A DNA stretch of 64,000 nucleotides from Lysinibacillus xylanilyticus (GTDB taxonomy: Bacteria > Bacillota > Bacilli > Bacillales_A > Planococcaceae): assembly GCF_001708185.1 (NCBI RefSeq), contig NZ_MDDN01000001.1:310001-374000 (forward strand), written 5' to 3'. This document shows positions 18,399-31,987 of the stretch, piece after piece (position 1 is the first letter of the stretch; each line of letters begins with the position of its first letter). The translations under genes were made by a program, and so were the position numbers. The notes under the pieces were generated by a model that saw only the letters and a list, made by a program, of their open reading frames with translations, did no database searches and was not told the origin of the DNA.

Positions 18399-18786
18399 TT
18401 ATTTATACTTTCTATTACCTTGCCCTTTTGCTTGCTCAATCATCTTTTGAATTTGTTCTTGTGTAAGTTGTAAAGTTTGTTTTAGCGTCTGTGTCCTCTT
18501 AGCTTGTTGAAGTGCCATGATAACTGCTGGGATTAAGCTAGCTTCAGAAACCGGTTTAACTAGATAACCCCTTATATTATCTTACTTAGACTTTTCTACA
18601 AATTCTTTTTGGCTATATGCAGTAATCAACAACACTGGGATATCCAGCTGACGACCAATCACCTCACTTGCTTTTAAACCACTGATTTTTGGCATTTCAA
18701 TATCCATTAATACAAGATCTGGTTTTAGCTTAAAAGCGGGTTCAATCACTCGATCTCCATCTCCTCCTTCTCCAACAATCTCATAC
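18399..18786 (-). pseudogene. Truncated ANTAR-type response regulator
   Basis: Minus-strand remnant of a receiver-plus-ANTAR regulator. The receiver piece keeps YEIVGEGGDGD, KPDLVLMDIEMPK and PVLLITAYSQ. An in-frame TAA (18582-18584) then breaks it before GYLVKPVSEASLIPAVIMAL and a partial ANTAR helix ending IEQAKGQGNRKYK. The first 15 or so residues, including the acidic pocket, are missing: the gene ends exactly where the structured repeat at 18787 begins. So there are three lesions: lost N-terminus, a stop codon, and a shortened ANTAR end. It is not expected to function. Confidence 0.8.
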
Positions 18787-18887
18787 GTTAGCCATCCATG
18801 TAGCGGCAAAAACTAGCGCCACATCACAGAAAATGAAAGATGATTAAATTCTTTCATGGGAGTTTAAGTGCAATGTTTCGCAAACTT
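18787..18887 (+). repeat. Structured dispersed repeat, copy 1
   Basis: This shares with 20272-20345 and 30924-31019 the order GTTAGCC, a stem-loop (TGTAGCG / GCGCCACA, imperfect here), then ATGAAAG-loop-CTTTCAT, then GAGTTTAAGTGCAATGTTTC ending near CAAACTT. Its left boundary coincides with the truncation point of the ANTAR pseudogene. It has the same orientation as copy 2. Confidence 0.7.
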
Positions 18888-19053
18888 TATTAATTTCCTC
18901 AAAAGTGTTCAGCATTAAAATATGTTCATAGTTTTAAATCACATTTAGCTATGTTATCCTTTCATTAAATAACGCTCCAAATATTGGATGTTTAAAAATA
19001 TCAAATAATTCACTTAACAAGTACTGAAAATAACTTAGATGGTGGTGATAATT

Positions 19054-19311
19054 TTGAAAGGAAAATTTTTCACAGGTTTATCTTTCTTCTGTTTTATGTT
19101 GAGCTTTCTTATAATTGGATTTGACTTTTTTGATTTTCTCTACGATAAAGGCATTTTTACACCATTAATTATTGGAGTATTGGGTATAATAAGTGCTTTC
19201 CTTGGAATTAAAGGTAATATCCGAATGATTCTCATACTGTTTAATTCGTTCTTTTCTATAGTTTTTCTATATGCACTATTAATAGGTATATTTGGATTTC
19301 AACAACCTTAA
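19054..19311 (+). CDS. Small membrane protein of unknown function
   Basis: An 85-residue, very hydrophobic protein with three likely membrane segments (about residues 5-25, 33-50 and 57-80). The frame opens at an ATG at 19039, but that ATG lies inside the GGTGGTGAT ribosome site, so the TTG at 19054 (MKGKFFTGLSFF) is the better start. I do not recognise the family. It lies in the island between the two direct copies of the structured repeat, so it may be horizontally acquired or a leftover of an excised segment. Confidence 0.6.
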   Translation: MKGKFFTGLSFFCFMLSFLIIGFDFFDFLYDKGIFTPLIIGVLGIISAFLGIKGNIRMILILFNSFFSIVFLYALLIGIFGFQQP

Positions 19312-19472
19312 AAGTATATTAAAATCCCTGTCTTAATAATAATTATGTTTTTTGGCTTTAAGTCTTCTATATCTTCTATTTGCTACTCCGAAAAAATCAG
19401 GTAACTAACAATGTAAAGCAGCAATAAGTTTCTCTAGTCATTAACACAATAAGGAAAACTTAGTAAAAGATG

Positions 19473-19501
19473 TTTACAAACAACTTAAAGATAGGTATAC
19501 T
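19473..19501 (+). promoter_or_regulatory. Strong sigma-A-type promoter for the small-ORF locus
   Basis: TTTACA (19473-19478), a 17-base spacer, and TATACT (19496-19501). Transcription would start near 19508, giving a leader of about 34 bases before the first small ORF. Confidence 0.7.
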
Positions 19502-19522
19502 TACAAAGTAAACAAAAAAATT

Positions 19523-19644
19523 CTTAAGGAGGTCGAATGAAATGATCGTTATTGTTAAATTGATGTCATTGGTAGTTACAACTTCAGTAAAAATGAAAAT
19601 CACACATTCGACCAGATCGGAATGGATCGCTTAAGGTTTTTTTT
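19523..19644 (+). other. Long-range mRNA fold that hides the ribosome site of the first small ORF
   Basis: GGTCGAATG (19531-19539), which overlaps AAGGAGG, is perfectly complementary to CATTCGACC (19605-19613) near the end of the ORF. Outside it, CTTAAG (19523-19528) can pair with CTTAAG (19630-19635), directly before eight T residues (19637-19644). The transcript's 5' end can therefore close onto its 3' end, masking the ribosome site and forming a terminator-like end. This resembles type I toxin mRNAs. The pairing is seen in sequence; the role is inferred. Confidence 0.5.
19542..19634 (+). CDS. 30-residue small protein, translation apparently sequestered
   Basis: The ORF reads MIVIVKLMSLVVTTSVKMKI then ten more residues ending EWIA. 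The first half is hydrophobic and the second basic/polar, the general build of small membrane-active peptides. AAGGAGG lies 9 bases upstream. A closer ATG at 19537 gives only a two-residue peptide (MK) that overlaps this start. It has its own strong promoter and the fold described at 19523-19644. I do not recognise a family; toxin-like function is speculation. Confidence 0.45.
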   Translation: MIVIVKLMSLVVTTSVKMKITHSTRSEWIA

Positions 19645-19660
19645 GTAATTAAGCATACCC

Positions 19661-19697
19661 ATACCGCAGGGAGAAGTGTGCCCCTGCGGTATTTTTG
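19661..19697 (+). terminator. First of two tandem terminators in the small-ORF locus
   Basis: ATACCGCAGGG (19661-19671) pairs perfectly with CCCTGCGGTAT (19682-19692), followed by TTTTTG. Confidence 0.85.
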
Positions 19698-19708
19698 TGC
19701 CTTTTTTC

Positions 19709-19739
19709 ACCGTAGGGGAGTCTCTCTACGGTTTTTTTC
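19709..19739 (+). terminator. Second tandem terminator, just upstream of the YrzI gene
   Basis: ACCGTAG (19709-19715) pairs with CTACGGT (19726-19732), followed by a long T run. No promoter is evident between this hairpin and the YrzI-like gene 34 bases on. Confidence 0.8.
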
Positions 19740-19772
19740 ATTTTTCACGGTAATTTAAGGAGGTGATAATAA

Positions 19773-19919
19773 ATGATATTAAACATTTTTTCTCTCACGA
19801 TAACGATTACAAAACGTGAGAAGTCTCTTGAGGAAGCACTTCATAATGAAAATGTGAAAAAAATCTTTGAAGAGAACCGAAGAAAAGTAGAAAATTATAT
19901 TCGTATTCGTCAATATTAA
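19773..19919 (+). CDS. yrzI: YrzI-family small protein
   Basis: A 48-residue protein starting MILNIFSLTITITKREKSLE, then EALHNENVKKIFEENRRK and an aromatic/basic tail. The hydrophobic start followed by KRxxSLEEAxxxExVKK is the pattern of the Bacillus YrzI family (Bac_small_yrzI). AAGGAGGTGATAATAA precedes the ATG. Functions are poorly known; in B. subtilis the yrzI locus also carries several very short ORFs on one transcript, as here (19542 and 19957). Two terminators precede it, so expression may depend on read-through or processing. Confidence 0.8.
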   Translation: MILNIFSLTITITKREKSLEEALHNENVKKIFEENRRKVENYIRIRQY

Positions 19920-19956
19920 TTTTGTTAACTAAAAAACATGAAAGGTGGGAATTGAG

Positions 19957-20037
19957 ATGATTTATATGATCAAAAGACGTTATGCAGCTTTATGGGTGGA
20001 GAAAGACACAACCACCAGATGCAGTAATATAAAGTGA
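19957..20037 (+). CDS. 26-residue small ORF downstream of YrzI
   Basis: MIYMIKRRYAALWVEKDTTT followed by six residues. AAAGGTGGG sits 8 bases before the ATG, and the ORF begins 37 bases after the YrzI stop. It is too short to test by composition; the ribosome site and its place in the locus are the only support. Confidence 0.35.
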   Translation: MIYMIKRRYAALWVEKDTTTRCSNIK

Positions 20038-20074
20038 CAATATAGCTATTTAATTTTATAATCTCAGTAAAGTT

Positions 20075-20104
20075 AACCCGTTCTAATCTAGGACGGGTTG
20101 CTTC
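20075..20104 (+). terminator. Weak terminator-like hairpin closing the small-ORF locus
   Basis: AACCCGT (20075-20081) pairs with ACGGGTT (20093-20099); only a short, interrupted T stretch follows. Confidence 0.5.
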
Positions 20105-20271
20105 AGGAGGTATTTTGCACTTTTTTAAGCGATATTTTATACATACAATTTGATGTAGTTTAAGAAAATGCGGAATTACAATGTTAGGGAAATTCTAATT
20201 CTAAATAGCGTAATTCCTCGATACTAAAATTGAATTTGGCGATTTTTAGATTAATTTCATTATTCTGCCCC

Positions 20272-20345
20272 GTTAGCCATCCATGTAGCGCAAAACAGCG
20301 CTACATCACAGATAATGAAAGATGATTAAGTTCTTTCATGGGAGT
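20272..20345 (+). repeat. Structured dispersed repeat, copy 2
   Basis: GTTAGCCATCC, then a perfect hairpin ATGTAGCGC / GCGCTACAT around a short A-rich loop, then ATGAAAG-loop-CTTTCAT and GGGAGT. It lacks the GTTTAAGTACA tail of copies 1 and 3, because just there the sequence passes into a truncated siderophore ATPase gene. It is a direct repeat of copy 1 at a distance of 1,485 bases. The region 20038-20271 before it holds no gene that I can see. Confidence 0.75.
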
Positions 20346-20352
20346 GACATAA

Positions 20353-20499
20353 GGATTTTTAAACCAAGGCCCTCCAGAGAATATTGTCACAGTAGAAATG
20401 GTTCAAGAAGTATTTGGTATGGAAGTAGCAGTATCGGAGGATCCTTTCTTTGGAACTCCATTATGTATCCCGAAAGGAAAAGGAAGGTATATAAAATGA
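20353..20499 (+). pseudogene. C-terminal fragment of a siderophore ABC ATPase (FecE/FhuC-like)
   Basis: The frame reads QGPPENIVTVEMVQEVFGM, then EVAVSEDPFFGTPLCIPKGK and ends GRYIK. This is the usual C-terminus of iron-siderophore ATPases (a GPPENIVT segment followed by a CIP segment). Walker and signature motifs are all missing. The fragment starts next to structured repeat copy 2, and its stop overlaps the ATG of the FhuF-like gene (ATGA), so an old transporter-reductase operon was cut here. Confidence 0.75.
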
Positions 20500-21149
20500 A
20501 TTTAGAGCCTTATGGCGTGGAAAAGCACCCCTCACCTCAAGGTATTCCTTTACATCAATTATTAAATAAGGATACTTTACTACCAATCATTAAACAGTAT
20601 GGAAATCATTTGAATACGCCTTCCTTAGCTGTAGCAGGTTCTCTATTTTTAAAACGTTATGCTGTTTTAGTAGCAGCTTCGAGTCTGGATTATTATGGAC
20701 TTCAAAAGAAAAAAATGGATTGGTGGTCTACAGCTCGACTTGATGTAACATCATATAAATTGCTAATTGAAGAAAATCCAACAGCACTTTTTGATGACTG
20801 TTGGAAAAATCGCATTTTCGCTCAACATTTAACACCAATGATTACTATCATCAGCGAAGAATGTAAAATTTCCTTAAAGATCCTATGGGAAAATCTCGCT
20901 GTAAGGCTACTTGCAACTCTTCGTAAAAATGAAGAATTGTATACTTTAAATGAATTAAATGAACATTTTAATGAACTTACATGCGCTGAAACTAATTGGT
21001 TAGGTATGGAGCAAAATCCTTTTCAAACTTATCTTCAGCGAAAAGAGACATGGAGTGAAGTACCCGTTCGAAAAACGTGTTGCCGATACTATCAAGTTAA
21101 TACAAAAGCAGATATTCCATACTGTAAGAACTGTCCGTTGAGGAAATAA
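20496..21149 (+). CDS. FhuF-like siderophore iron reductase domain protein
   Basis: A 217-residue protein with a CC-x(15)-C-x(2)-C cluster at its end (KTCCRYYQVN to YCKNCPLRK), the ferric-reductase [2Fe-2S] motif of FhuF. The central region resembles the IucA/FhuF fold. The ATG at 20496 has GGAAGG upstream and overlaps the stop of the broken ATPase. It would release iron from imported siderophores in the cytoplasm, but its transporter partner has been truncated, so present use is uncertain. The gene itself is intact and ends at a strong terminator. Confidence 0.8.
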   Translation: MNLEPYGVEKHPSPQGIPLHQLLNKDTLLPIIKQYGNHLNTPSLAVAGSLFLKRYAVLVAASSLDYYGLQKKKMDWWSTARLDVTSYKLLIEENPTALFDDCWKNRIFAQHLTPMITIISEECKISLKILWENLAVRLLATLRKNEELYTLNELNEHFNELTCAETNWLGMEQNPFQTYLQRKETWSEVPVRKTCCRYYQVNTKADIPYCKNCPLRK

Positions 21150-21224
21150 TAAACCTATGTTTTCCTAACCAACACGCTAGATTATGTGCTATTGTAGAGT
21201 TTTTACTATGGACAGATCACATAA

Positions 21225-21270
21225 AGAGAGAGCATGTTTTTTCACTTAACATGCTCTCTCTAATGTTTTA
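21225..21270. terminator. Bidirectional terminator between FhuF-like and DUF350 genes
   Basis: AGAGAGAGCATGTT (21225-21238) is perfectly complementary to AACATGCTCTCTCT (21248-21261), and T-rich sequence follows on the plus strand. Confidence 0.8.
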
Positions 21271-21295
21271 TTATAATTCTCTCAAATATACTTTA

Positions 21296-21709
21296 TTAAT
21301 ATGACAAACTTCCTGCAATAATTAATCCTACCGTAATGCCTACTGCAAATAAGCTGAAGCCTACTGCAGTATTTCCTTCTTCCACTTTTTTCTCCAAGCT
21401 TGTTTTTGGTGTTAATACGTATTCAATAATCAAATACACAACTACTTGTGTGGCAATTCCGATTAACCCCCAAATAATAGCATCAAGTATATGAACACTT
21501 GAAGACCATACTGTATATAATGTGATGCCTAATCCAATCACTTTTCCCCATAGCTTTAATGCCACAGCCATATTGCCTTCTTTAATTAAGTTCCACTCTG
21601 AAAATTTTGTTGTAAAAGCAAATGCAACAATACCAATCAAAATGAGAATTAACCCGGTTCCTGTATATAATAAAAAATTTAAAAAACTATCTAATGAGAA
21701 AAATCCCAT
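21296..21709 (-). CDS. DUF350 (UPF0719/YjfL-like) membrane protein
   Basis: A 137-residue protein with four membrane helices and the two-repeat pattern of DUF350: EGNMAVALKLWGKVIGLGI and EEGNTAVGFSLFAVGITVGL are clear internal repeats. The frame is open to a TTG at 21751, but GGAGTG 9 bases before the ATG at 21709 favours the shorter form. It ends an operon with a glutathionylspermidine-synthase-like ATP-grasp enzyme and a small lipoprotein, the same trio as E. coli YjfL/YjfC/YjfM. Role unknown. Confidence 0.88.
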   Translation of the reverse strand: MGFFSLDSFLNFLLYTGTGLILILIGIVAFAFTTKFSEWNLIKEGNMAVALKLWGKVIGLGITLYTVWSSSVHILDAIIWGLIGIATQVVVYLIIEYVLTPKTSLEKKVEEGNTAVGFSLFAVGITVGLIIAGSLSY

Positions 21710-21769
21710 TCCTTTACACACTCCTTTTATGATAACTTCAGTTTGATCCAATCTCTTAAATTCTTATTT

Positions 21770-23035
21770 CTAATAGCCTATTGGCAAAAAATAAGATCCG
21801 TTTTCGGTTATTTGTCCCCCTGCGCGAATGCCAATTGCACTTGCCTGACCATTAATATAAAAGCAACCATACATATAATGCGCTCGTTTGGGTCCTTGTT
21901 CTGTTTGAATAATCGTTTGTGGTAGCTCGATAAACTGTTGATAAACAGAAAGTTCATCTTTATATGTTTTATGAAAATCTTCCGCAATTTTTTTACCTGT
22001 ATTTGAAAAAATTTCGACAGTGTCTCCTTCGCGACCAAATGTAGGCTTTTTCACAAAACTTTGTCCCTGTTGTAAAAAAGCATCTGAATCTAGGTAGGTT
22101 GGTAAAAAGTATTTATGTATTGCGTCATGTTCTTGAGGCGAAAAAAAAGAATGTTGCTCCTCATGAAGCCCCCATATAAGCGCCATTATTGCCTTAGATT
22201 GTAGTAAAAAAGCAGAAGGAGGATTCACAACGGCTAGTTGTTGTTGTTCCACTAGCTTCATTAACGATTGACCTACTTTGTCTTTCGTTATTGGATCTAC
22301 ATCATGTATTAAATGTTCAATAGGATACGTTTGTCGATATAAAACATCGATTTTTTCTCCGTTTATATCATATAGACCTTGTGCTAAGATAACTTCTTCA
22401 CTTTCTAAAATCGGCTCATCTACAAGTTGTAATTGATGAAAGTCCATATACTGACTTTTTAATCCCATGAGTTCCTTTAAATACATGGTTGTCAGTTTAT
22501 CCTCTTCATGTTCCGAATGGGCTGCAAAAACAATATTGTTAGCTCCCGATCTTCCCATCGAACGAAGCGACGACGTTACAGCTTTCAACATTGCTTGTTT
22601 TAACTGATCTTCGCATCCGTCATTTGGATTTTTCAGCTCAAACTGTTCACACACTTTCCCATTCACAAAAAAGGTTTCTTTTATAAATGTAGGTGTATCT
22701 GCGTTTATTTCCAATAATTTCACTTGTTCATCTGTCACGACTAAATCTAAACGAGCAATGACACTTTCTACTGGAAGTGTTTGCAAACGGATGAAAGAGT
22801 GCGTTTCAGTTGGAAATCCAAGACGCAACAACGTCTCATCATCTAGCATCCGCAACAAAGGAGCCGATTTATAAAAAATATGGCCAATCTGTTCGGTCGC
22901 CTGGCGAATCTTATTAATCGTTTCAGTACTTTCTCTCTTAATATCAAATAGAGCATATTCCATACCATATATATCATGCCAAAAATCTTTTATCTGGCTA
23001 AAAAATTGTTGTCGATTCTCACGAAATCGGTTCAT
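21770..23035 (-). CDS. Glutathionylspermidine-synthase-like ATP-grasp amide ligase (YjfC/YgiC-like)
   Basis: The 421-residue protein matches the C-terminal synthetase domain of glutathionylspermidine synthase. Visible marks are EINADTPTF, QGLYDINGEKIDVLYR, FVKKPTFGREGDTVEIF (ATP-grasp nucleotide site) and the end GIRAGGQITENGSYFLPIGY. There is no amidase domain, as in YgiC/YjfC. These enzymes are predicted to join an amine to a peptide or protein carboxylate. The natural substrate is not known, and published comparative work links them to cell-envelope peptides. It lies two bases after the lipoprotein gene. Confidence 0.88.
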   Translation of the reverse strand: MNRFRENRQQFFSQIKDFWHDIYGMEYALFDIKRESTETINKIRQATEQIGHIFYKSAPLLRMLDDETLLRLGFPTETHSFIRLQTLPVESVIARLDLVVTDEQVKLLEINADTPTFIKETFFVNGKVCEQFELKNPNDGCEDQLKQAMLKAVTSSLRSMGRSGANNIVFAAHSEHEEDKLTTMYLKELMGLKSQYMDFHQLQLVDEPILESEEVILAQGLYDINGEKIDVLYRQTYPIEHLIHDVDPITKDKVGQSLMKLVEQQQLAVVNPPSAFLLQSKAIMALIWGLHEEQHSFFSPQEHDAIHKYFLPTYLDSDAFLQQGQSFVKKPTFGREGDTVEIFSNTGKKIAEDFHKTYKDELSVYQQFIELPQTIIQTEQGPKRAHYMYGCFYINGQASAIGIRAGGQITENGSYFLPIGY

Positions 23036-23037
23036 CT

Positions 23038-23346
23038 TTACCCTCCAAAGCCACCTTTTGAACCACTACCTATCCCTGATTTGTAATTCGTTTTATAAGT
23101 TTTATAGTCAGTACTTGTTTGTAATGAATTTTTTGTTCCGTAATATTTCCCACCATAGTAGTAGCTACCTGCATGAGTGGAATGATGATCATCACAATAA
23201 TACGTACCCGTTTCATCATCCCAATCCCAATCATCGCAATCTGTTCCAGTTGGCTCTGCATATCCCCTTTCTTCCCCACAAGCAGTTAACGATAACAAAG
23301 CTGCAGCTGCTAATGCTCCTGTCATCATTTTCTTTGTCTTATTCAT
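23038..23346 (-). CDS. Small Tyr/Gly/Asp-rich lipoprotein (YjfM/YgiB-like position)
   Basis: A 102-residue lipoprotein: lipobox LSLTAC (Cys near residue 23), then an acidic WDWDDETGTYYCDD segment and a Gly/Ser/Tyr/Lys-rich tail ending SGSKGGFGG. It occupies the YjfM/YgiB (DUF1190/UPF0441) position next to the ATP-grasp ligase in the same operon. By inference the Gly-rich tail or the acidic stretch could be the ligase target. Sequence match to DUF1190 itself is weak. Confidence 0.75.
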   Translation of the reverse strand: MNKTKKMMTGALAAAALLSLTACGEERGYAEPTGTDCDDWDWDDETGTYYCDDHHSTHAGSYYYGGKYYGTKNSLQTSTDYKTYKTNYKSGIGSGSKGGFGG

Positions 23347-23362
23347 GCTAAAAATTCCCTCC

Positions 23363-23824
23363 CTATGTTATAAGCGTATATCCTGTTGGCTTAACATATA
23401 AAACATACACACCTTGGTCTTCATCAATTTCAGCTGAGTCCCGCTCCCACTCCTTGCCTTCGATATATGTATATATACTGCCAATAATGCTTAAAATATC
23501 TAAATGATTGGTCATATATTCAAATGTAATAAGCGGATAATTTTTATAGGCATTTAATTCACGAATTTCAAGTTTAATCCCTTCATGTAAGTGTTCTGGC
23601 ATTTCAATTGGTGTTTCTTCGTATAATTGTACATAAATGACGAAGAGCTCACCTTCAATAGCAGAAGACAGCTGTTTATAGGTCTTCCCTTCTTTAATAA
23701 AAAATTCACATTCTCTTCTTGTTAAAATTTGTGGTAAATCAATATTAGTATAGTAATAGATTGGTTCAAACTTGTCTTTCTCTTTTTGCAAACGATATTC
23801 TAACATTGCACCTTCAAATTGCAT
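23363..23824 (-). CDS. Unrecognised protein leading the ATP-grasp operon
   Basis: A 153-residue soluble protein, mixed alpha/beta by eye, with no membrane segment. It starts MQFEGAMLEYRLQKEKDKFE when read from the ATG at 23824, which has AAGGGAAG six bases upstream; the longer frame to 23869 lacks a ribosome site. Conserved-looking pieces are LPQILTRRECEFFIKEGKTY and GSIYTYIEGKEWERD. I do not recognise a family. Its place 16 bases before the lipoprotein gene suggests a cytoplasmic partner of the ligase system. Confidence 0.75.
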   Translation of the reverse strand: MQFEGAMLEYRLQKEKDKFEPIYYYTNIDLPQILTRRECEFFIKEGKTYKQLSSAIEGELFVIYVQLYEETPIEMPEHLHEGIKLEIRELNAYKNYPLITFEYMTNHLDILSIIGSIYTYIEGKEWERDSAEIDEDQGVYVLYVKPTGYTLIT

Positions 23825-24141
23825 AACACACTTCCCTTTATAAATATTGTTATCTCTTCGAATTGCCATTACTAAAAATAACTACATGTATTTTTATATT
23901 TATGGTAGATTTTCTTATCCATTGGCTTTTATTAATTTTTTATACGACTGTGAATGATAAATAGTTTCATATTTTTCAACTAAACCCCACCTTTAACTAC
24001 TTGCCAATGAATTTAGAGTTTAATTGAGCGATATTCAGTAAATTAAAAAAGATGCAATATTCACGAGTAAACTCCCTTTCAAGTTTATCTCTTTGAATGA
24101 TTACATCTATTTCTTAAAACATTAGCGTACAAAATCGCAAT
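23825..24141. other. Gene-free stretch
   Basis: About 320 bases with no credible ORF. A 7-bp inverted repeat GAGTTTA (24016-24022) / TAAACTC (24068-24074) encloses AT-rich sequence. It faintly recalls the outer arms of the structured repeat family but lacks its inner hairpins. Confidence 0.3.
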
Positions 24142-25110
24142 TCATTTTATCCAATTATTTGGTTTCCAATCGTTTGCTATCCATTGTGGATCTGGCTCTT
24201 CATATGGTGCTGACGCCATTAATTTGTCTTGTGCCCATATCGCAGCTTTTGAGCGAATCATTTCATCAAGCAATGGTTGCACGAATTCCTTTGGCTCAGT
24301 GTGAAAAGCGTGAACAGCAAAATCGTAAAACCACCCACAGCTGAGTAAATAAGGCGCAATATCTTGCTTCGTTAATCCATTTTTCAACATTAACGTAAAG
24401 GAAAAAATTCGTTTACATGCATGCCAAGCCATTTTTTCTGGTGATTCCATCCATTTTTCAATGCGTTCTCTTGCTTTATCAATCATTACTAATGGGTCGT
24501 CGATAGCACGCCCATGACCAGGATACGCTTTTTTTATCGAAAGTTTAGCGAGTCGCTCTAGACTTTCATAAGAGCGTCCTAAACTGTTTGCACCTTCTCG
24601 AAAAATATTTATCCATCCAACATCATTGTGATGAAATAAATCGCCACAAATTAAAATCTGCTGTTTTGGCTCGTATAAAGAAATATGTCCTAATGTATGT
24701 CCTGGTGTATGTAAAACTTGTAAAACACTATGACCCGTATTAATCTCTTCTTCATCTACAAGTAACTGTTGCACAACATATTGTTCCACTGGTTGATCTA
24801 AATAGTGGGCACTACAAGTTTCGAAATCACAACGATTAACCATTTTTCCTTCCCAAAGATGTGCTGCAATCGGTAGGTTATATTGCCGCTGAAAATAATG
24901 ATTTCCTCCAACGTGATCGCTATGATAGTGAGTGTTAATAATGCCATTTAACTGTTTTGGTGATATCCCTGCTTCGATTAAAAGTTTCTCAGTTCGAACT
25001 ATATCGCTACCAAATCCGGTATCAATTAAAAATGATTGATTATCTTGAATAACAATACTATTGGCACTTGGAAATGGACGCTCAAAAAATAGGATTTCTG
25101 CAGTTTTCAT
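24142..25110 (-). CDS. MBL-fold metallo-hydrolase
   Basis: A 322-residue metallo-beta-lactamase fold enzyme with the dinuclear zinc motif THYHSDHVGGNH (about residues 60-71), further ligands in LHTPGHTLGHISLY and LICGDLFHH, and PGHGRAID. The C-terminal 100 residues are helical, as in glyoxalase-II-like or quorum-lactone hydrolases of this size. The substrate is unknown. It follows the MaoC-like gene by 20 bases on the same strand, so a role in thioester or acyl metabolism is possible. Confidence 0.88.
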   Translation of the reverse strand: MKTAEILFFERPFPSANSIVIQDNQSFLIDTGFGSDIVRTEKLLIEAGISPKQLNGIINTHYHSDHVGGNHYFQRQYNLPIAAHLWEGKMVNRCDFETCSAHYLDQPVEQYVVQQLLVDEEEINTGHSVLQVLHTPGHTLGHISLYEPKQQILICGDLFHHNDVGWINIFREGANSLGRSYESLERLAKLSIKKAYPGHGRAIDDPLVMIDKARERIEKWMESPEKMAWHACKRIFSFTLMLKNGLTKQDIAPYLLSCGWFYDFAVHAFHTEPKEFVQPLLDEMIRSKAAIWAQDKLMASAPYEEPDPQWIANDWKPNNWIK

Positions 25111-25130
25111 ATGGTAAACTCCTTTAAATG

Positions 25131-25508
25131 TTATAGAATAATACCTGAAAAGCTTCCCTTTAACACTTCTTTTTCAAGTTGATTTGTACACGTAAATGTT
25201 GCAGTAATTGCCGTACGATTTTTTCCATCCGGTTCATACTGTTCAATTATTACTTCACAACGAATCGTGTCATCGCTAAAAACTGGACGTAAAAATTCAT
25301 AATCCATTTTACGCGCTAACACGTTATAATCACCTCCAACTTTCGTTGGAAGCGTTGCTGTTAAAAGCCCATGTACGACAAACCGACCTTGTTCATCTGG
25401 TGTGATATGATGAGTCCCTTCATCTTTTGATACCCTCGTAAATAATTCAACATCCTCTGTTGTAAACTTACGCTCAAATGTAATTTTTTCTCCTACTTGT
25501 AATGCCAT
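25131..25508 (-). CDS. MaoC-like hotdog dehydratase
   Basis: A 125-residue single hotdog domain. FTTEDVELFTRVSKDEGTHH fits the MaoC hydratase active-site region (the usual D-x(4)-H is represented by DEGTHH), followed by VVHGLLTATLPTKVGGD and YEFLRPVFSDDTIRCEV, the typical strand order. It probably hydrates or dehydrates an enoyl-thioester, or acts as an FapR-like binder. It is the upstream partner of the MBL hydrolase. Confidence 0.85.
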   Translation of the reverse strand: MALQVGEKITFERKFTTEDVELFTRVSKDEGTHHITPDEQGRFVVHGLLTATLPTKVGGDYNVLARKMDYEFLRPVFSDDTIRCEVIIEQYEPDGKNRTAITATFTCTNQLEKEVLKGSFSGIIL

Positions 25509-25624
25509 CTATGTCCCCCCTGTTAAAAACCACAGTTATAGACTGAATAATAAAACTATTCAATCTATAAATCAAGCACTATACATATCAACCTACGAAA
25601 CAAACACTCGAAAGCAACGGACAT

Positions 25625-25660
25625 AAAAAGATGACGCTGGTAGTATACCAAAGTCATCAA
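25625..25660 (-). terminator. Terminator of the ger operon
   Basis: On the minus strand GATGAC and GTCATC arms enclose an inner GGTA/TACC-type stem, then TTTTTATG. It lies about 60 bases past the gerAB stop. Confidence 0.75.
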
Positions 25661-25718
25661 ATTGCCGCAAAGTACGGCACTCCCTCTTTATTAAACTGTC
25701 TATCTACTAGGAAGCATA

Positions 25719-26831
25719 TCAAATTTCTATTTCGTTCTTTTTCATTCTTTTTCGTATTGCATATATAACTACCAACAAAAGAGGTAAAAAAAGTCCGATT
25801 GATAATGTTAAAGAATTACCCGTTGTATCGTCAAAATGTTTTTGATAGATGATATTAGGATAAATCACAAGTGAAAGAACGACGGCAATCATGCCCAACG
25901 GTAAGGTTAAAGGGCGGTAATCTTTCAAATTTAGAATTTGTGCCATTCCTAAAACGGAAGCGTAAAAATAGAGGGTCGTCTTAAAATAGAGAGTGATCAC
26001 CCAAAGAGAAGCCATTAATCCCTCAATACGCTGTATAAAATTCCCGATATTTATCCTTTTGGTCAATTCATAGCTTGGATAAATCTCTCCGGCAGTTTTA
26101 TCAATACCTAATACTGTAACACTCAAAAATGTAATAATGATGATGACGATGCCGCCTATTAAGTTTCCTATTAAAAATGTTTTTCTCCCTTGCTTCATTT
26201 TATTAACAAAAGAAGGAAAAATCATTAAGAGAACAACGGCATTTACTGAAGATACTATGACATAAAAAATGGATGATTGAATGATTTTTTTTGTCCCCAT
26301 CTCATATACAGGCTGTATGTTTTCAAACTTCATTTCCGGTGAAAGACACACCACTAAAATGAAAAAAAAGGCGAAGAACACGACAATTAATATTTCTGCA
26401 GTACGAGCGAAGGTTTCCAATCCAAGACGGACGCCCATTACCACAATCCCCGCCATAAGAATATTAAGGACTACCATTGGGGTATTTGGCATCATATGGA
26501 TGTTTAGGAATAGCCCAAAATAATACAAAAGTTCCGAAGCATAAAAAAGAACTATTAATACAAAAAAAGCAGCTAAGGCTTTACCTATCCATCTCCCAAA
26601 TAGTTTTTCTATCATTTGGACATAGGTGAGGTGAGGGAACCAAAGTGCTATAGTGATGAGTAGCCAAATGACTAATAAACCGATTCCCGTACCAATTATA
26701 GCCGCAATCCAGGCGTCTTGTTTTGCGCCGGTTGCTAATGCTGATGGTACAGTTAAGATGCTCGTACCAATCGTAAATAAAATAACTAAAACCAGAAATT
26801 GGTACGAATTTATTTTAACGTCTTGCATCAT
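25719..26831 (-). CDS. gerAB: Spore germinant receptor B subunit (GerAB/YndE family permease)
   Basis: A 370-residue protein with ten membrane helices, of the spore-germination branch of the amino acid permease superfamily. The first helix region (SYQFLVLVILFTIGTSIL) and the PSALATGAKQDAW loop are typical. The B subunit lies in the inner spore membrane and is the likely germinant-binding component. It is the last gene of an operon of order A, C, D, B. Germinant identity cannot be inferred. Confidence 0.92.
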   Translation of the reverse strand: MMQDVKINSYQFLVLVILFTIGTSILTVPSALATGAKQDAWIAAIIGTGIGLLVIWLLITIALWFPHLTYVQMIEKLFGRWIGKALAAFFVLIVLFYASELLYYFGLFLNIHMMPNTPMVVLNILMAGIVVMGVRLGLETFARTAEILIVVFFAFFFILVVCLSPEMKFENIQPVYEMGTKKIIQSSIFYVIVSSVNAVVLLMIFPSFVNKMKQGRKTFLIGNLIGGIVIIIITFLSVTVLGIDKTAGEIYPSYELTKRINIGNFIQRIEGLMASLWVITLYFKTTLYFYASVLGMAQILNLKDYRPLTLPLGMIAVVLSLVIYPNIIYQKHFDDTTGNSLTLSIGLFLPLLLVVIYAIRKRMKKNEIEI

Positions 26832-26864
26832 TTCATATCATCCCTTCCCCTCTACACTTATCTT

Positions 26865-27101
26865 TTATTTCAAGAAATGAGAAATAAAATCATTAAGCGG
26901 TTTAAAAATAAAAGTGAGTAAATCAAATGGATTTGGAATAGTTTTTTCAAATCCAAAAAGTGTAATACTTAGACCTCCCCCAATTGCAAGAAGAATTGAA
27001 AATACAAGTAACTCTTTTTTATATTGTTTTTCCAAGAGAGGTGGAACTTCAATCCACACAATAACTGCTGCAATTAGAATTATTCCTATTGTTTTTATCA
27101 T
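26865..27101 (-). CDS. Two-helix small protein of the ger operon (D-type subunit)
   Basis: A 78-residue protein with two membrane helices (about residues 3-18 and 33-50) and a short C-terminal tail. Small two-helix D proteins are known beside some Bacillus germinant receptor operons and modulate germination efficiency; this gene has the right size, topology and place. Its ATG lies two bases after the gerAC stop with GAGGT upstream. Assignment is by context and topology. Confidence 0.75.
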   Translation of the reverse strand: MIKTIGIILIAAVIVWIEVPPLLEKQYKKELLVFSILLAIGGGLSITLFGFEKTIPNPFDLLTFIFKPLNDFISHFLK

Positions 27102-27103
27102 AA

Positions 27104-28294
27104 TTATTTAACCTCTATCTTTTCTAAGAAGGAATTACCTTCTGTACCCGTATGCACAAGTTTTACGTCTACTTTAACATTCGCTTTCAACTTAGGGAAT
27201 TCCTCATCCCACTGCTCTTTCATCTTTTTCCATTCTTTCGGATTAGATCGATGAATGGCTTCACCAAATCCAAATATGTCTGATTTATATTGTTTTTGTA
27301 ACGTTTCAATGGACATGTTAATGGTCTCTTCCATCTGTTTTTCAGTAATCTTCTCTAGCTCAACAATCGTATCTAGGTCATTAAGATTAATTTGACACTC
27401 TACTTCCCCAACATTTCCTTTTACTTTAATATTGATATCCACTTCAGGCATACCTTTGTTTATTTTGCCTTTCACTTTAGAATCTGCTTGAATAATCTCT
27501 ATAGTGGCTTTCCCCTCTTCAGGACAAGATATAGCAGTTACAGACTTTTGCACTTCGTTGACGATGCCATTATACCCTCTGCTTTCTCGTTCAGTTAACC
27601 AGCCCACCAGTTTATCTTTTTTAAACACCGCTAATTCATCATATACAATTCGCACAGGAGGATTAATCGATTCTACTTCCTGTTTGGTTGATCCTATTTC
27701 TTGATCCCCTGTTACTAGAATCCCTGTTAATACAGCTTCCGTTCCATCACTTGTCAGAGAAGCGATTAACTCATCTAACTTAATGCCGTTCGTTGCAGCC
27801 CAATAATGTTCTGACGTCTGCAGGCTGTTAAACATATTATTAGCAGGTATATTTTCAATCGTTGTTCTGACATTCAGTACTTCCGCTGCGGTCATATCCT
27901 TAGCAATAGCAACAAAGAAATCAGATCGGAGTTCCCAATCTCTTGACAATAAATCTAAGGATTTCGCTATCCCTTCTTTAGCTAAATCCTCACCAAGCAC
28001 AAGCATTCGAAGATGTCCTGGATATATTTTTCGAGGTGATGTCTTTGTAATTTTTCGAAGAGCTTCATTTACCGTTTCGCCTTTTTCCTGAAACAGGATG
28101 ACTGGTGAACGCCCAGTACTTGTTTTCGTAGGTATTTCCGAAGGTACAACCACTTGAGCAGTTACTTGGTATTCATCTTCTACTTTATCGATTCCTATCG
28201 CTAACGTAATACCAAGCTCATTTAATTCCCTCTTGTCCCAACATCCCGTAAGAATGGGGCTAAGAATTAAGAGAACAATCATGCACTTTTTCAT
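27104..28294 (-). CDS. gerAC: Spore germinant receptor C subunit (Ger(x)C lipoprotein)
   Basis: A 396-residue lipoprotein with lipobox PILTGC (Cys near residue 18) followed by WDKRELNELGITLAIGID, the Ger(x)C signature, and a C-terminal KIEVK end after the helical domain. The C subunit sits on the outer face of the inner spore membrane. GGGGG lies seven bases before the ATG, and the gene follows gerAA by three bases. Complete and of normal length. Confidence 0.93.
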   Translation of the reverse strand: MKKCMIVLLILSPILTGCWDKRELNELGITLAIGIDKVEDEYQVTAQVVVPSEIPTKTSTGRSPVILFQEKGETVNEALRKITKTSPRKIYPGHLRMLVLGEDLAKEGIAKSLDLLSRDWELRSDFFVAIAKDMTAAEVLNVRTTIENIPANNMFNSLQTSEHYWAATNGIKLDELIASLTSDGTEAVLTGILVTGDQEIGSTKQEVESINPPVRIVYDELAVFKKDKLVGWLTERESRGYNGIVNEVQKSVTAISCPEEGKATIEIIQADSKVKGKINKGMPEVDINIKVKGNVGEVECQINLNDLDTIVELEKITEKQMEETINMSIETLQKQYKSDIFGFGEAIHRSNPKEWKKMKEQWDEEFPKLKANVKVDVKLVHTGTEGNSFLEKIEVK

Positions 28295-28297
28295 CGT

Positions 28298-29908
28298 TTA
28301 ACCCCCTTCATTTTTTGGCGGCTGTGGTTTTGCAGAGGCTGAATCTTGTTGCCTAACGATATTTTGTTGACTGATTAGACGAGGCCGAGTAAACATTTTC
28401 CATATAGGCAAGAGAATAAACGTATCCTTTTGATCGGAAAGATTAAATGGAGCTATTGAAGACATATAAGGCACGCCAAAAGAACGCAAACTACATAAAT
28501 GCAGAAGTAGAGCGATTAAACCAATCGTTATTCCTAATAAACCAAAAGAAGCAGCTAATGCCATAAATCCAAAGCGTAGCATCCTTCCCGAGATAGCTAA
28601 GTTGTAAGTTGGAGAAACGAAACTAGAAATGGCGGTTATTGAAACCACAATTACCATCGCAGCAGAGATTATGCCTGCTTCAACCGCCGCTGTTCCAATT
28701 ACAAATGCCCCTACGATAGAAATGGCTGAACCGATGGTTCTTGGCATTCTTAAGCCTGCTTCACGCAAGATTTCAAAGGTGACTTCCATTATAATTGCTT
28801 CAACAAATGCCGGAAATGGAGCACCTTCTCGTTGGGCTGCCAGACTTATAAGGAGTCCAGTGGGTAACATTGCATGATTAAAAGTTGTGACCGCAATAAA
28901 TAATGCAGGTGCAAGCATTGCAATTGAAAATGCAAAAAAACGAAGGAGTCGAATAAGACTCGCAATATCTGCTCGTTGATAGTAATCTTCCGAAGATTGA
29001 AAAAATTGAACAAATAATGCTGGAACTACTAGGACAAATGGTGTTCCATCAACCAAAATGGCTATACGTCCTTCCAATAATGCTGCAGCTACTACATCCG
29101 GACGTTCCGTATTGAATATGGTTGGGAAAGGTGAATAAGGTGCATCCTGAATCAATTCCTCGATATTTCCACTTTCAAGAATTCCATCAATATCTATCTT
29201 ATCCAAACGCAAACGGACTTCTTTCACTATTTTGTCATTTGCAATTCCTTTGATATACATCATGGCAACATTCGTTTTCGTACGTTTTCCAATAATTTTT
29301 GATTCCATCCAGAGATCTGGGTCTTTCAGTCTTCTACGAACTAAGGCGGTATTGACACGCAAATTTTCGGAGAACCCTTCACGGGGTCCTCTTACTACCA
29401 CCTGGGCTGATGCTTCCGTAACTCCACGCTCAACCCAATGCCTATTGGAAATGATTAACCCTTGGGCATATCCATCGATTAAAATAATCGTATCCCCCGA
29501 TAATAGTCCAGTAAGAAGCTCTTCAAAATTAGTTAGTTCTCTAATTTCCCCCACTGTCATGGCAAAATCTTTTAATATGCTAATCAGATTTTGTTCAGGA
29601 GATAGCTTTTTCTGTAATTCGGTACCTTCGACATCTAGCATGAGCGTTTCTAAAATGAAGTTTTGTAATGAGATTGTATCGGTTAATCCATCTGTATAGA
29701 TAATACCAGCTTTAATAGTTTCTTCTTTTCCTACTCGAATTTCTCGAATGATAATATCCGAGCTTTTCCCAAGGGAATCTCTTATTCTTTGTAAATTTTC
29801 TTGAAGATTTGTTTTTAATTCGTTTGCTAAATTTGTCTTCATCATTTGGCTAGTTGAAATAGAATTGGAATGCATTTTAGAATTACTTTTCTTTCTGAAA
29901 AAGCCCAT
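28298..29908 (-). CDS. gerAA: Spore germinant receptor A subunit (GerAA/GerKA family)
   Basis: A 536-residue protein. A hydrophilic N-terminal domain (to about residue 285) with GDTIILIDGYAQGLIISNRH and VVRGPREGFSENLRVNTALV is followed by membrane helices with GRIAILVDGTPFVLVVPALF and PFPAFVEAIIMEVTFEILRE. All are GerAA-family signatures. It is the first gene of the operon. I looked for a sigma-G type promoter upstream and found no convincing one by eye. Confidence 0.93.
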   Translation of the reverse strand: MGFFRKKSNSKMHSNSISTSQMMKTNLANELKTNLQENLQRIRDSLGKSSDIIIREIRVGKEETIKAGIIYTDGLTDTISLQNFILETLMLDVEGTELQKKLSPEQNLISILKDFAMTVGEIRELTNFEELLTGLLSGDTIILIDGYAQGLIISNRHWVERGVTEASAQVVVRGPREGFSENLRVNTALVRRRLKDPDLWMESKIIGKRTKTNVAMMYIKGIANDKIVKEVRLRLDKIDIDGILESGNIEELIQDAPYSPFPTIFNTERPDVVAAALLEGRIAILVDGTPFVLVVPALFVQFFQSSEDYYQRADIASLIRLLRFFAFSIAMLAPALFIAVTTFNHAMLPTGLLISLAAQREGAPFPAFVEAIIMEVTFEILREAGLRMPRTIGSAISIVGAFVIGTAAVEAGIISAAMVIVVSITAISSFVSPTYNLAISGRMLRFGFMALAASFGLLGITIGLIALLLHLCSLRSFGVPYMSSIAPFNLSDQKDTFILLPIWKMFTRPRLISQQNIVRQQDSASAKPQPPKNEGG

Positions 29909-30261
29909 AGACTACCTCACATTTACTTTTTATTTTTTGGCTAATTAGAAAAATATCGATGGATCCGTTAACTTTTCTATTAAGCATGTTGATGAAATAT
30001 AGATTCTCATGTTCTTTAGCATAGGAATCACCTTTTAACAAATATTTTCTAATTAAATAAATCATACTACTTTTATTAAATAGCAGGATTTTTTCGACAA
30101 AACTTCTAATTAATGAACAAAAAAGCAAATGGAAAAACACATTTCTCAAATTTCACCTGTGAATACAAATGCCATCCACAATTTTTGGTGATGAACCGAA
30201 ATACCAGATTGACAGAAAACTTTGGAATTTAATTCATGACAATAAAACTTCAAAATGTAAA

Positions 30262-30296
30262 AACTCCATTTTGAAAAATAGATCAAAATGGAGTTG
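30262..30296 (-). terminator. Terminator of the 30385-30864 gene
   Basis: AACTCCATTTTGA (30262-30274) pairs with TCAAAATGGAGTT (30283-30295); on the minus strand a T-rich stretch follows. The stem core is shared with the terminator near 32375. The region 29909-30261 has no gene that I trust. Confidence 0.7.
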
Positions 30297-30384
30297 AAGT
30301 ATAAGATTTTTATAAAAAAGTGAAATCATTTCAATGAGTTTTATCCTACAAACGCCCCTTAATAGTTAAATTCCCCGCTTTTAC

Positions 30385-30864
30385 TCAACTATTTTTTAGT
30401 TTTTCATCCAATTTCTCTTCTAATTCTTCGTACTTCTCGTCACAAGCCTTAGCCTTATTACCCACTGGGATAGACATTCTAGTAATTTGAACTCTTCCAT
30501 CTTGACTATAACTACCTAAAGAGACAAACCCGATTTCACTTTCAGGGATATCTTTTATTTTCTCGCCATTCTCGTTTACGTAGAAGTATTTGGTATCATG
30601 AGATCCTGAATTTTCTCTCCCTCCCCAACCAAAATCTTCAGGAGAAGTGGTAAGCACTAAACCATCTTCATCAAAATGGTATTGGATCGTGTCATCTTCA
30701 ATTTCTAGTTGAGGAGTACCTTCTATATTGTAAACAACATAGGCACAACCCTCGTAACCATCTTGGAAATAGAATGCTTCGTCATAGACCTTGTGAGTGA
30801 ATATCCAATAAAGACAAAATCCGATAACAATTCCTATGATCATTCCTGAAATGATTTTTTTCAT
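30385..30864 (-). CDS. Membrane-anchored extracellular protein of unknown function
   Basis: A 159-residue protein with an N-terminal anchor (about residues 2-22) and an acidic extracellular domain containing IQYHFDEDGLVLTTSPEDFG and GRVQITRMSIPVGNK, ending in a charged EELEEKLDEKL helix. It resembles DUF6843-type proteins of Bacilli, without certainty. The frame opens at 30879, but GGGGG before the ATG at 30864 sets the start. The structured repeat copy 3 lies immediately upstream (30913-31019), so its transcript may begin within or beyond the repeat. Confidence 0.7.
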   Translation of the reverse strand: MKKIISGMIIGIVIGFCLYWIFTHKVYDEAFYFQDGYEGCAYVVYNIEGTPQLEIEDDTIQYHFDEDGLVLTTSPEDFGWGGRENSGSHDTKYFYVNENGEKIKDIPESEIGFVSLGSYSQDGRVQITRMSIPVGNKAKACDEKYEELEEKLDEKLKNS

Positions 30865-30912
30865 CCTGTTCACCCCCATACTGCAGGAAACCGTTATTAT
30901 CTATTACTTCAA

Positions 30913-31019
30913 TTAAACTGCCCGTTAGCCCTCTATGTAGTAAAAATCGGCGCTACATCACATATAATGAAAGATGATTAAGTACTTTCATAAGAGTTTA
31001 AGTACATTTCTTCACATTC
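30913..31019 (+). repeat. Structured dispersed repeat, copy 3 (longest)
   Basis: Outer arms TTAAACT (30913-30919) and AGTTTAA (30995-31001) enclose GCCCGTTAGCC, a first hairpin (ATGTAG / CTACAT) and a second (ATGAAAG / CTTTCAT). The whole could fold as a three-way junction. A tail AAGTACATTTCTTCACA follows. The tail overlaps the 3' end of the minus-strand gene at 31012. Confidence 0.75.
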
Positions 31020-31479
31020 TTTTCTTTAAATAAAATGAGCAAAATCCTGAAACACAAAGGCAGGCTATAAACGTCCAGAAGTTAAAAAATAAATGATTAG
31101 AAAAAGGATTTAAATAGGATATTTCGTATTCAAAATATGGATTGATTTCATTTCGAAATGAAACGATTCGGTAAATCGTCATTCCCAAAATCAGCAGAAA
31201 CACCCCTGAATAGAAGGCTTGAAATAATTTCCTTTTCACTGAAAAACGTTCATGTAACTTTTCAAAAACAAACATCATTGCAAAGAAAAAATAAAGAATA
31301 ATTAACATCGGAAACATAACAAACATTAAGCCTGGGTTTCCATTTCCTCCAACAAAATTGCCACCTGTGGGGTCGAATGAAATAGTAGTCATATTAGTGA
31401 ATGCAAAACCGACAACACTTACAATTCCCGAGATAACAACACTTAGCAAAAAAAGAAAACGCATTATACTCTTTCTCAA
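31012..31479 (-). CDS. Four-helix membrane protein of unknown function
   Basis: A 155-residue protein with four membrane segments; the longest loop, after the first helix, contains SFDPTGGNFVGGNGNPG. The TTG at 31479 is taken as the start because GGGG lies eight bases upstream (reading MRKSIMRFLFLL); the frame continues to 31512 without a ribosome site. I recognise no family. It is one of a row of small minus-strand membrane genes separated by repeat remnants. Confidence 0.65.
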   Translation of the reverse strand: MRKSIMRFLFLLSVVISGIVSVVGFAFTNMTTISFDPTGGNFVGGNGNPGLMFVMFPMLIILYFFFAMMFVFEKLHERFSVKRKLFQAFYSGVFLLILGMTIYRIVSFRNEINPYFEYEISYLNPFSNHLFFNFWTFIACLCVSGFCSFYLKKRM

Positions 31480-31549
31480 CAAACCTGCCCCTTTGTAAAT
31501 TAATTTCAACAAAAAAGCTTAAATCCTTTATGGATAAACACTACCATTT

Positions 31550-31575
31550 GTTTAAGTACATTTATTCACAAACTT
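31550..31575 (+). repeat. Repeat-family tail remnant
   Basis: GTTTAAGTACATTTATTCAC followed by AAACTT matches the tail of structured repeat copies 1 and 3. The preceding TTAAATCCTTTATGG recalls a decayed second hairpin. Confidence 0.5.
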
Positions 31576-31581
31576 AATTCT

Positions 31582-31606
31582 AAAAAAGCTTAGGCGTACC
31601 TAAGCG
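31582..31606 (-). terminator. Terminator of the 31610-31831 gene
   Basis: CTTAGG and CCTAAG arms with a four-base loop, followed on the minus strand by CTTTTTTAG. Confidence 0.75.
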
Positions 31607-31609
31607 TCA

Positions 31610-31831
31610 TTACCACTTCTCATTATTCTTATGATTTTTTCTATAAACGTAATCTGCATTTTTTAATCCGGTCCAATTACTAATAAAATTAATAATCACT
31701 ATAAAAATTCCAAATAAAACAAACGCCACACTGTAATGACCTTTGAAAACTAAAACAAACGCCGCAACCAATAGTAATATCATTATAACTATTACCGAGA
31801 CTTGTAATTTTCCCTTCTTCTTATCATTCAT
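31610..31831 (-). CDS. Small two-helix membrane protein
   Basis: A 73-residue protein: a lysine-rich start, two membrane helices (about residues 11-28 and 33-52) and a polar basic tail (YVYRKNHKNNEKW). TAGGAGG lies 8 bases before the ATG, so expression is credible. No family recognised. It has its own terminator and lies between two remnants of the dispersed repeat. Confidence 0.65.
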   Translation of the reverse strand: MNDKKKGKLQVSVIVIMILLLVAAFVLVFKGHYSVAFVLFGIFIVIINFISNWTGLKNADYVYRKNHKNNEKW

Positions 31832-31943
31832 ATGTTCAACCTCCTATCAAATCGCCAATATTTTTCCGTATCTTTTAATACAATTTAGATGGTTTTTTCT
31901 ACCATATTCCTAATATTTACAATACCATCTAGTGTGAATATTA

Positions 31944-31987
31944 TTCAACTAAACTGCGTTGATAGTTTAAGTACATATCTTCACAAT
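31944..31987 (+). repeat. Repeat-family remnant lacking the inner hairpins
   Basis: TTCAACTAAACTGCGTTGAT then AGTTTAAGTACATATCTTCA. The left end matches the left end of copy 3 (TTCAATTAAACTGC) and the right matches its tail, so the two hairpins have been lost between them. Confidence 0.5.

Follow-up and report, generated by a model that had tools for sequence, protein, structure and literature searches.

Short hairpin repeats of Lysinibacillus appear to be miniature derivatives of an IS110-family insertion sequence located at gene-cassette junctions

Bacterial chromosomes contain short, dispersed, intergenic repeats with hairpins, bcr elements and REP among them, which reach tens of copies per genome. 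Here we describe a repeat family found in a stretch of 64,000 nucleotides of Lysinibacillus xylanilyticus (contig NZ_MDDN01000001.1, positions 310,001 to 374,000, forward strand), the whole of which we call the window. A sequence-only reading of the window had noticed three full and two eroded copies, drawn them as a three-way junction and proposed that they are a non-autonomous mobile element or a structured RNA. Comparison with related genomes makes it very probable that the repeats are internally deleted, non-autonomous miniature inverted-repeat transposable elements (MITEs) of an IS110-family insertion sequence (IS) with a guide-RNA-like region, inserted at junctions of gene cassettes.

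The closest described systems come from two fields. Bridge RNAs, as set out in parts of PMC11208160, have one loop for target binding and another for donor binding, and target and donor share a core dinucleotide. For IS621, the same parts of that paper report that a 22-bp donor worked with RNA supplied separately; mobilisation of MITEs is therefore plausible. The IS1111-attC group (ISKpn4, ISPst6 and relatives; Tetu & Holmes 2008, Post & Hall 2009) targets integron attC sites, according to a passage of PMC11187229 that cites these studies. An attC site, in the portion of PMC2727003 devoted to it, consists of R''-L'' and L'-R' pairs with an unpaired spacer and a variable terminal structure. Integrons are said to be extremely rare in Firmicutes, where a section of PMC9024848 credits IntegronFinder 2.0 with one complete integron and a few clusters of attC sites lacking integron integrases (CALINs).

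The parent of the repeats came to light when other genera were searched with the first part of the repeat. Elements longer than the repeat share its first 50 nt and its last 12 nt and measure 164-199 nt, 371-380 nt or 1590-1607 bp. The full-length elements of 1590-1607 bp, present in other Lysinibacillus and in a Bacillus, have the same ends and a DEDD/IS110 transposase gene, which these ends flank in loci L156, L234, L235, L237 and L075. The L156 element encodes a 410-aa protein matching DEDD_Tnp_IS110 (PF01548, 1.8e-41) and Transposase_20 (PF02371, 5.9e-21); its relatives in L234, L235 and L237 are open and 82-85% identical, and the L075 copy is broken by a stop codon. Transposase matches at E<=1e-60 occur in five of 32 genomes of the genus. 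Among the ten matches listed, five (from three genomes) are 82-85% identical and the other five, whose ends are uncharacterised, 42-43%. About 250 bp of noncoding DNA lie to the left of the open reading frame (ORF) in L156, upstream of the transposase gene (tnp), and 125 bp to its right. This is the layout of the IS110 group, with a long noncoding left end upstream of tnp and a short right end.

Of the left end, the miniature copies retain about 50 nt (GTTAG, then CCATCCATG-hairpin-CACCACAGA-AATGAAA), and of the right end about 12 nt (CTTTCATGGGAG). The longer elements with the same ends and a transposase argue that the repeats of the window are internally deleted copies, and the three full ones read, on comparison of their sequences, as transposase-less miniature derivatives of about 70 bp. 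They have both IS ends, no gene and the same target, copy 1 having no recognisable example of the left half-site described below. The first hairpin would be the covarying stem of the IS left end. The second would consist of AATGAAA from the left end paired with CTTTCAT from the right end, joined by the internal deletion; in the full-length IS, sequences matching its two arms lie close to opposite termini. The genome of the window itself contains a transposase remnant, the C-terminal 114 aa (C7:66974-67315, 81% identical), followed by the right end TTTTCATGGGAG and, beyond the boundary, TTGAATAAGG. A more decayed transposase piece lies on contig C23.

Elements of all size classes are located between GTTAG and TT(N)AA, that is, inside GTTAG^TT, and AG is found on both sides. 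GTTAG itself appears, from sequence comparison, to be the junction core of gene-cassette arrays in many bacilli, in which single small genes lie between AACTAA-N7-9-GTTAGTT cores. With at most two mismatches, the left half-site was recognised at 51 of 71 miniature copies, 6/6 elements of 164-199 nt, 4/5 of 371-380 nt and 5/5 full-length ones, as against 1.0% of 20000 random 24-mers. The corresponding figures for the right half-site were 62/71, 5/6, 4/5 and 5/5. The two halves form a palindromic target site, TTATTGAACTAA-N-GTTAGTTCAATAA, which is also found alone in many places.

Empty sites were sought by BLAST, and the filled/empty pairs number at least those given here. In L201, a site near 1432 filled by a 198-nt element has an empty counterpart near 13333, their flanks being 99.3% identical over 305 bp and 99.0% over 302 bp. 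The filled site differs by CCATCC...CATGGGAG added after GTTAG, so that the insertion of this 198-nt form was site-specific, with the core dinucleotide AG shared and no longer target duplication. In L074 and L073, also a filled/empty pair, the right flank is 99% identical over 302 bp, and in the genome of the window L018 can be compared with the empty counterpart L062 on the left flank only (94% over 284 bp). Empty sites, which the sequence-only reading had proposed to look for, are thus present, and of a target duplication no more than the shared AG is seen. Further support comes from the third full copy of the window (copy 3). Its cassette is 98% identical to that of L209 over 420 bp and the MITEs are 76% identical, which favours separate insertions; two other such pairs gave 92/74% and 93/86% for cassette and MITE. 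The earlier proposal of a non-autonomous mobile element is upheld by the full-length relatives together with deletion forms of intermediate size, a precise target and the pairs of filled and empty sites.

The noncoding region of about 250 bp before the gene of the full-length IS is conserved between genera, gene-less forms included. It holds CCGTTAGTCTGACT, the top strand of the target followed by sequence that could base-pair with the other half. The target motif CCGTTAGT followed by GACT is present in 12 of 13 noncoding regions and a donor-like motif in 11 of 13; the donor motif of the region, CATGGGAG, repeats the IS's own right end. Among ten readable cases the noncoding donor copy is identical to the right end in seven, namely in all five elements with a transposase gene (three of these five from one genome) and in two of the five without it. 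In L156 both right end and noncoding copy read CATGGTAG, and the donor motif hence varies together with the IS end in one lineage. Both guide motifs occurred jointly in 1 of 100000 mononucleotide shuffles. Folded to a consensus, ten sequences form two domains, with one motif in each. A guide (bridge or seek RNA) function of this region is likely on these grounds. Since the miniature copies keep the ends and not the noncoding region, RNA and transposase would have to be provided in trans.

We also examined the fold. A well-preserved copy (L007), folded as single-stranded DNA, forms the three-way junction, with z-scores of -4.6 and -5.2 for the two strands. Covariation was counted on a structure named by hand, in an alignment of 56 copies. 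In the first hairpin, column pair 38-58 is U-A in 35 copies and A-U in 20, pair 41-55 is C-G in 29 and U-A in 8, and pair 44-53 is C-G in 45 and U-A in 4; ten long relatives have one pair that is U-A in four, C-G in three and A-U in two. The second hairpin (ATGAAAG/CTTTCAT) is 98% paired and nearly invariant, and it is the only one that RNAalifold found unaided in the 56-copy alignment. The outer arms TTAAACT/AGTTTAA pair in 57% of cells, and they lie outside the repeat, being the two halves of the palindromic target site. For the whole structure, pairs with changes on both sides numbered 7 against a shuffle mean of 7.4, which is no excess; cells with such changes numbered 40 against 24.7, and 80.5% of cells were paired against 78.7%. 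The three-way junction is confirmed in part: a good copy folds as drawn, but the outer arms belong to the target and the second stem shows no covariation. Likewise, the covariation anticipated for the structure is found in the first hairpin but not in the pair count as a whole.

The arrays into which the elements are inserted were studied in 98 loci, 20 of them from arrays of the genomes labelled G and 78 fetched through a recombinase gene described below; these loci contain 508 strict cores. In Paenisporosarcina HGH0030 (L144), one small gene and one junction mostly alternate. Junctions have a type I core (AACTAAMCTGCCCC before GTTAG), a type II core (ACTAAAGCACCC before GTTAG) or both. In double junctions a hairpin or short spacer separates the cores, which lie at a distance of 45-63 bp, and the order is I then II in 56 of 59. 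Across the 98 loci, modules between type I and type II cores are mainly 48-51 and 58-63 bp long (a few 45, 53, 54 or 56 bp), and a hairpin resembling a terminator is present in many of the longer modules. Some of 26 composite-junction folds form a long hairpin and others do not; many junctions have one pair only. They do not follow the strict attC consensus GTTRRRY/RYYYAAC. Exact core matches numbered 110 in the genome of one relative, compared with 0 for a reversed-pattern control. The pattern ACTAAN{5,8}CCGTTAG gave 18 matches in the genome of the window against 4 for the reversed control and no excess in several relatives, and so is too strict for Lysinibacillus.

Intervals were defined by adjacent same-strand cores 250-1500 bp apart, identical proteins being counted once and the longest ORF taken. 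Cargo ORFs run antisense to the site in 184 of 203 intervals, a further 12 intervals having no ORF of 60 aa, whereas the recombinase ORF is in sense with it in 9 of 10. Clustering of the 213 array proteins, among which recombinases are counted, gave 182 clusters with 166 singletons; the median interval is 705 bp. Sixteen of 20 hand-picked proteins from array regions have a Pfam match above cut-off: phosphotransferase, CdiI-type immunity, YxiJ, SUKH, HXXEE, HAD, isochorismatase, GNAT (three), NUDIX, glyoxalase, AsnC-type helix-turn-helix, GrpB, alpha/beta hydrolase and LD-carboxypeptidase. PADLOC, run on ten cargo proteins, recognised no convincing defence system among them; its one marginal match (mad6, 7.7e-4) was to a phosphotransferase-like protein. 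Near-identical stretches starting TTATTGAACTACT.CACTGAACTATGGGACTC occur in three genomes (L065 from 5702 on, L074 from 11342 on, and L077 near 6911 on the minus strand); the L065 copy contains a glyoxalase-like ORF, and the stretch is possibly a recently shared cassette. Within a Psychrobacillus cassette array (L136:582-818, 7001-7299 and 12828-12912), Rfam recognises domains of group II introns; in integrons, some introns of this kind are known to target attC.

A 281-aa tyrosine recombinase (PF00589, 4.6e-40) recurs at at least 78 loci in named genomes of many genera of bacilli. It scores 221.6 with the XerA model NF040815, just above the cut-off of 220, and 90 bits with the integron integrase model TIGR02249, against a cut-off of 265. 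It occurs in many places, mostly bounded by junctions. By eye, most copies share sequence from GTTAGTAAAA at the left boundary to TTGACTAAAGCACC(C) before GTTA, and neighbours beyond differ; this was judged from 27 left-end and 40 right-end rows, the right-end alignment containing spurious anchor matches. The core is unrecognisable in the left-end rows of L142, L147, L186 and both of L187. L144 and L145 are near-identical through the recombinase cassette to the core and then diverge. Of the 1632 ends of segments shared between these loci, 697 have a core no more than 25 nt away, a position that 4.2% of all bases occupy; the recombinase dominates this figure. With recombinase segments left out and duplicates removed, the count is 45 of 214 ends, compared with 4.0% of bases. 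The window cassette (ORF 31012-31464) is found in eight contexts in the genus, its own genome included, several of them core-bounded on one or both sides and others truncated. Single-gene cassettes are thus precisely gained and lost at the site, by comparative evidence. Because boundaries of the recombinase and other cassettes coincide with cores, the XerA-like recombinase probably moves the cassettes. Two regions (G020:C1:4471764-4476104 and G046:C11:184500-187752) each contain four adjacent tyrosine-recombinase genes, distant relatives (31-39%) of the cassette recombinase.

Next, we return to the window and its genome. With copy 3 as query, 34 of 41 genomes had a match at E<=1, and convincing matches (best E <1e-5) were found in 14 of 25 genomes of the same genus (own included) and in 0 of 16 others. 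The genome of the window has at least 24 matches across the element body at E 1e-9 or better, among 42 at E<=10; the copy count is a lower bound, 40 of 48 candidates having been scored and at least one further copy lying on C7. The neighbours of these repeats are varied ORFs. The three full copies with two hairpins were confirmed by reading of the sequence and by the repeat search, and the further copies predicted in the genome and its relatives exist. The supposed eroded copies at 31550-31575 and 31944-31987 proved to be cassette junctions without an element, and the tail TTTAAGTACATTTCTTCAC, taken for a part of the repeat, belongs to the cassette.

Table 1. MITEs, cassette junctions and cargo gene in the window
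Feature	Position	Strand	Remarks
MITE copy 1	18787..18862	+	from GTTAG to final AG; sequence reading
MITE copy 2	20272..20344	+	left neighbour TTATTCTGCCCC, a partial half-site; right flank TGACATAAGG, not site-like
Left half of cassette junction, copy 3 inserted beside it	30908..30923	+	TTCAATTAAACTGCCC; compared with other sites
MITE copy 3	30924..30996	+	degenerate, CATAAGAG where others have CATGGGAG; first hairpin shortened
Right half of junction, left end of gene cassette	30997..31015	+	TTTAAGTACATTTCTTCAC, the 'tail' of the sequence-only reading
Cassette cargo gene	31012..31464	-	no Pfam family above cut-off
Right boundary of cargo cassette	31477..31496	+	CAACAAACCTGCCCC, then degenerate core TTTGT
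Degenerate cassette junction without MITE	31550..31569	+	formerly eroded copy 4
Cassette junction without MITE	31941..31984	+	TTATTCAACTAA-ACTGCGTT-GATAG-TTTAAGTACATATCTTCAC; formerly eroded copy 5

The cargo ORF was listed as 31012-31512 from a TTG; by eye, the ATG at 31464 is the likelier start. The place in L209 that matches the right boundary of the cargo cassette reads CCTGCACC-GTTAG. At copy 1, CTCATAC precedes GTTAG. This copy is adjoined by a truncated response-regulator-like gene on the minus strand (region 18500-18786), and copy 2 by the end of an ATPase-like gene (from 20345 on), both judged by eye. The gene fragments beside the two copies suggest decay, or insertion away from a proper junction. 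A second dispersed repeat of 43 nt, 93% identical between 32073-32115 and 47214-47256 (GGCTCATCACCATAACGT...), has no evident likeness to the MITEs.

In the mechanism we propose, the parent IS would make a bridge or seek RNA from its left noncoding region of about 250 bp, the target loop carrying CCGTTAGT and the donor loop CATGGGAG. A full-length copy would supply transposase and RNA in trans, and the MITE would be inserted at a junction via recombination at the AG dinucleotide, between GTTAG and TT of the putative target CCGTTAGTT / CCGTTAGTTCAATAAG. The tyrosine recombinase of XerA type, whose gene is one such cassette, would excise the cassettes and insert them.

Several points weigh against this explanation. 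Transposition is deduced from sequence and none was observed. No full-length parent was found in the genome of the window, and as the transposase is present there only as remnants, its MITEs are probably immobile now, or stranded. The left half-site is unrecognisable, at the threshold used, in 20 of 71 miniature copies, as it is by eye in copy 1. The pattern of our element finder includes GTTAG and tolerates up to 3-4 mismatches. Part of the constancy of this motif is therefore built in, and independent evidence comes from the sequence outside it. The half-site pattern and the guide motifs were picked after the data had been seen, and the shuffle was mononucleotide. The right end differs from the noncoding copy in three of ten elements (L138, L170 copy 2 and L201), all without a transposase gene. 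The noncoding region of one IS folds no better than shuffles (z 0.31), and only 5 of 49 consensus pairs in the ten sequences have a compensatory change. The divergence of MITE from cassette (76% versus 98%) could also reflect gene conversion or fast decay. Finally, the first hairpin is kept with compensation though the short copies have no guide region.

Other explanations were weighed as well. The hairpin repeat adjoins the GTTAG core, travels with cassettes, has a covarying hairpin and receives its closing arms from the site, all of which would suit a functional part of the cassette recombination site, with an attC-like fold kept for the tyrosine recombinase. We nevertheless consider such a role very improbable: many junctions have no repeat (508 strict cores in 98 loci; the L144 array has no match to the repeat start), the same ends enclose an IS110 transposase gene, the MITE is 76% identical where its cassette is 98%, and empty sites exist. 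This function was dropped once the longer elements and the transposase came up. We also considered, and dropped, the idea that the repeat is an independent cassette whose right core is a degenerate GGGAG in place of GTTAG.

Still less probable is a structured RNA of neighbouring genes (riboswitch, small RNA or attenuator), the other proposal of the sequence-only reading. The window has 0 Rfam matches at the gathering score, the second hairpin does not covary, the neighbouring ORFs are varied and the ends are those of the IS, and against these stand the intergenic position and one hairpin with compensatory changes. A fold is indeed present; for the short copies a structured RNA need not be invoked, since there is no Rfam match, the guide region is absent and, of the three stems, only one both covaries and belongs to the element. 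Elements of the IS200/IS605 type have hairpins near both ends and insert 3' of a short motif. That our repeats are MITEs of another transposase type such as this one is hardly credible, as the gene that these ends enclose in the five full-length elements is an IS110-family transposase gene, even though hairpins near both ends, insertion after GTTAG and the absence of a long target duplication would all agree with it.

Internal deletion of an IS110-family element thus explains the repeats best, and they point to an apparently widespread, unnamed cassette system in bacilli. We regard it as reasonably probable, with less assurance than the origin of the repeats, that many genera of bacilli possess an undescribed integron-like capture system, with arrays of tens of single genes, attC-like sites of one or two core pairs and a non-IntI, XerA-type recombinase as a free cassette, parasitised by a bridge-RNA IS with a guide to the core and by its MITEs at dozens of junctions. 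If so, one RNA-guided element rides on a tyrosine-recombinase gene-shuffling system and may lock or reroute it. In the titles and opening lines of abstracts among the literature matches listed, with subscription papers and preprints outside coverage, there was no report of integron-like arrays in Lysinibacillus, Psychrobacillus, Sporosarcina or Paenisporosarcina, nor of a MITE of an IS110 element. The earlier remark that no named element resembles the repeat holds against this literature, and the nearest published idea is the IS1111-attC group.

Like that group, the IS described here is a DEDD IS110/IS1111 element inserting at a specific point of cassette recombination sites. In the IS1111-attC group, however, the noncoding region lies downstream of tnp and inverted repeats are subterminal, whereas here it lies upstream of tnp; the hosts of the group are integron attC sites, here they are integron-like sites of bacilli, and most copies here are transposase-less miniatures. 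The IS therefore behaves like the group and falls outside it, because of its IS110 layout and its different host system. With integrons and CALINs, as passages of PMC8618304, PMC9024848 and PMC2727003 depict them, the arrays share small single genes of mostly unrelated families, mostly one cassette orientation, sites where two inverted core pairs can flank a variable hairpin, and an associated tyrosine recombinase. The differences lie in the recombinase, which model scores separate from IntI and which travels as a cassette in its own right, and in orientation, cargo being mostly antisense to the site and the recombinase sense. With the bridge-RNA system of IS621/IS110, in the features given in parts of PMC11208160, the parent shares a long left end whose noncoding stretch precedes the recombinase gene, a short right end, a dinucleotide core and target and donor motifs; its core is AG (in transposase orientation), its target is a cassette junction and its guide function is deduced from sequence alone. 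It offers a natural test case for RNA-guided transposition: its noncoding region spells out the target, its donor motif changes along with the IS end in one lineage, and the many copies without transposase should depend on RNA and enzyme provided in trans. In size, intergenic position, hairpins and copy number the miniature copies resemble bcr and REP sequences; unlike for these, parent, target and boundaries are identified here.

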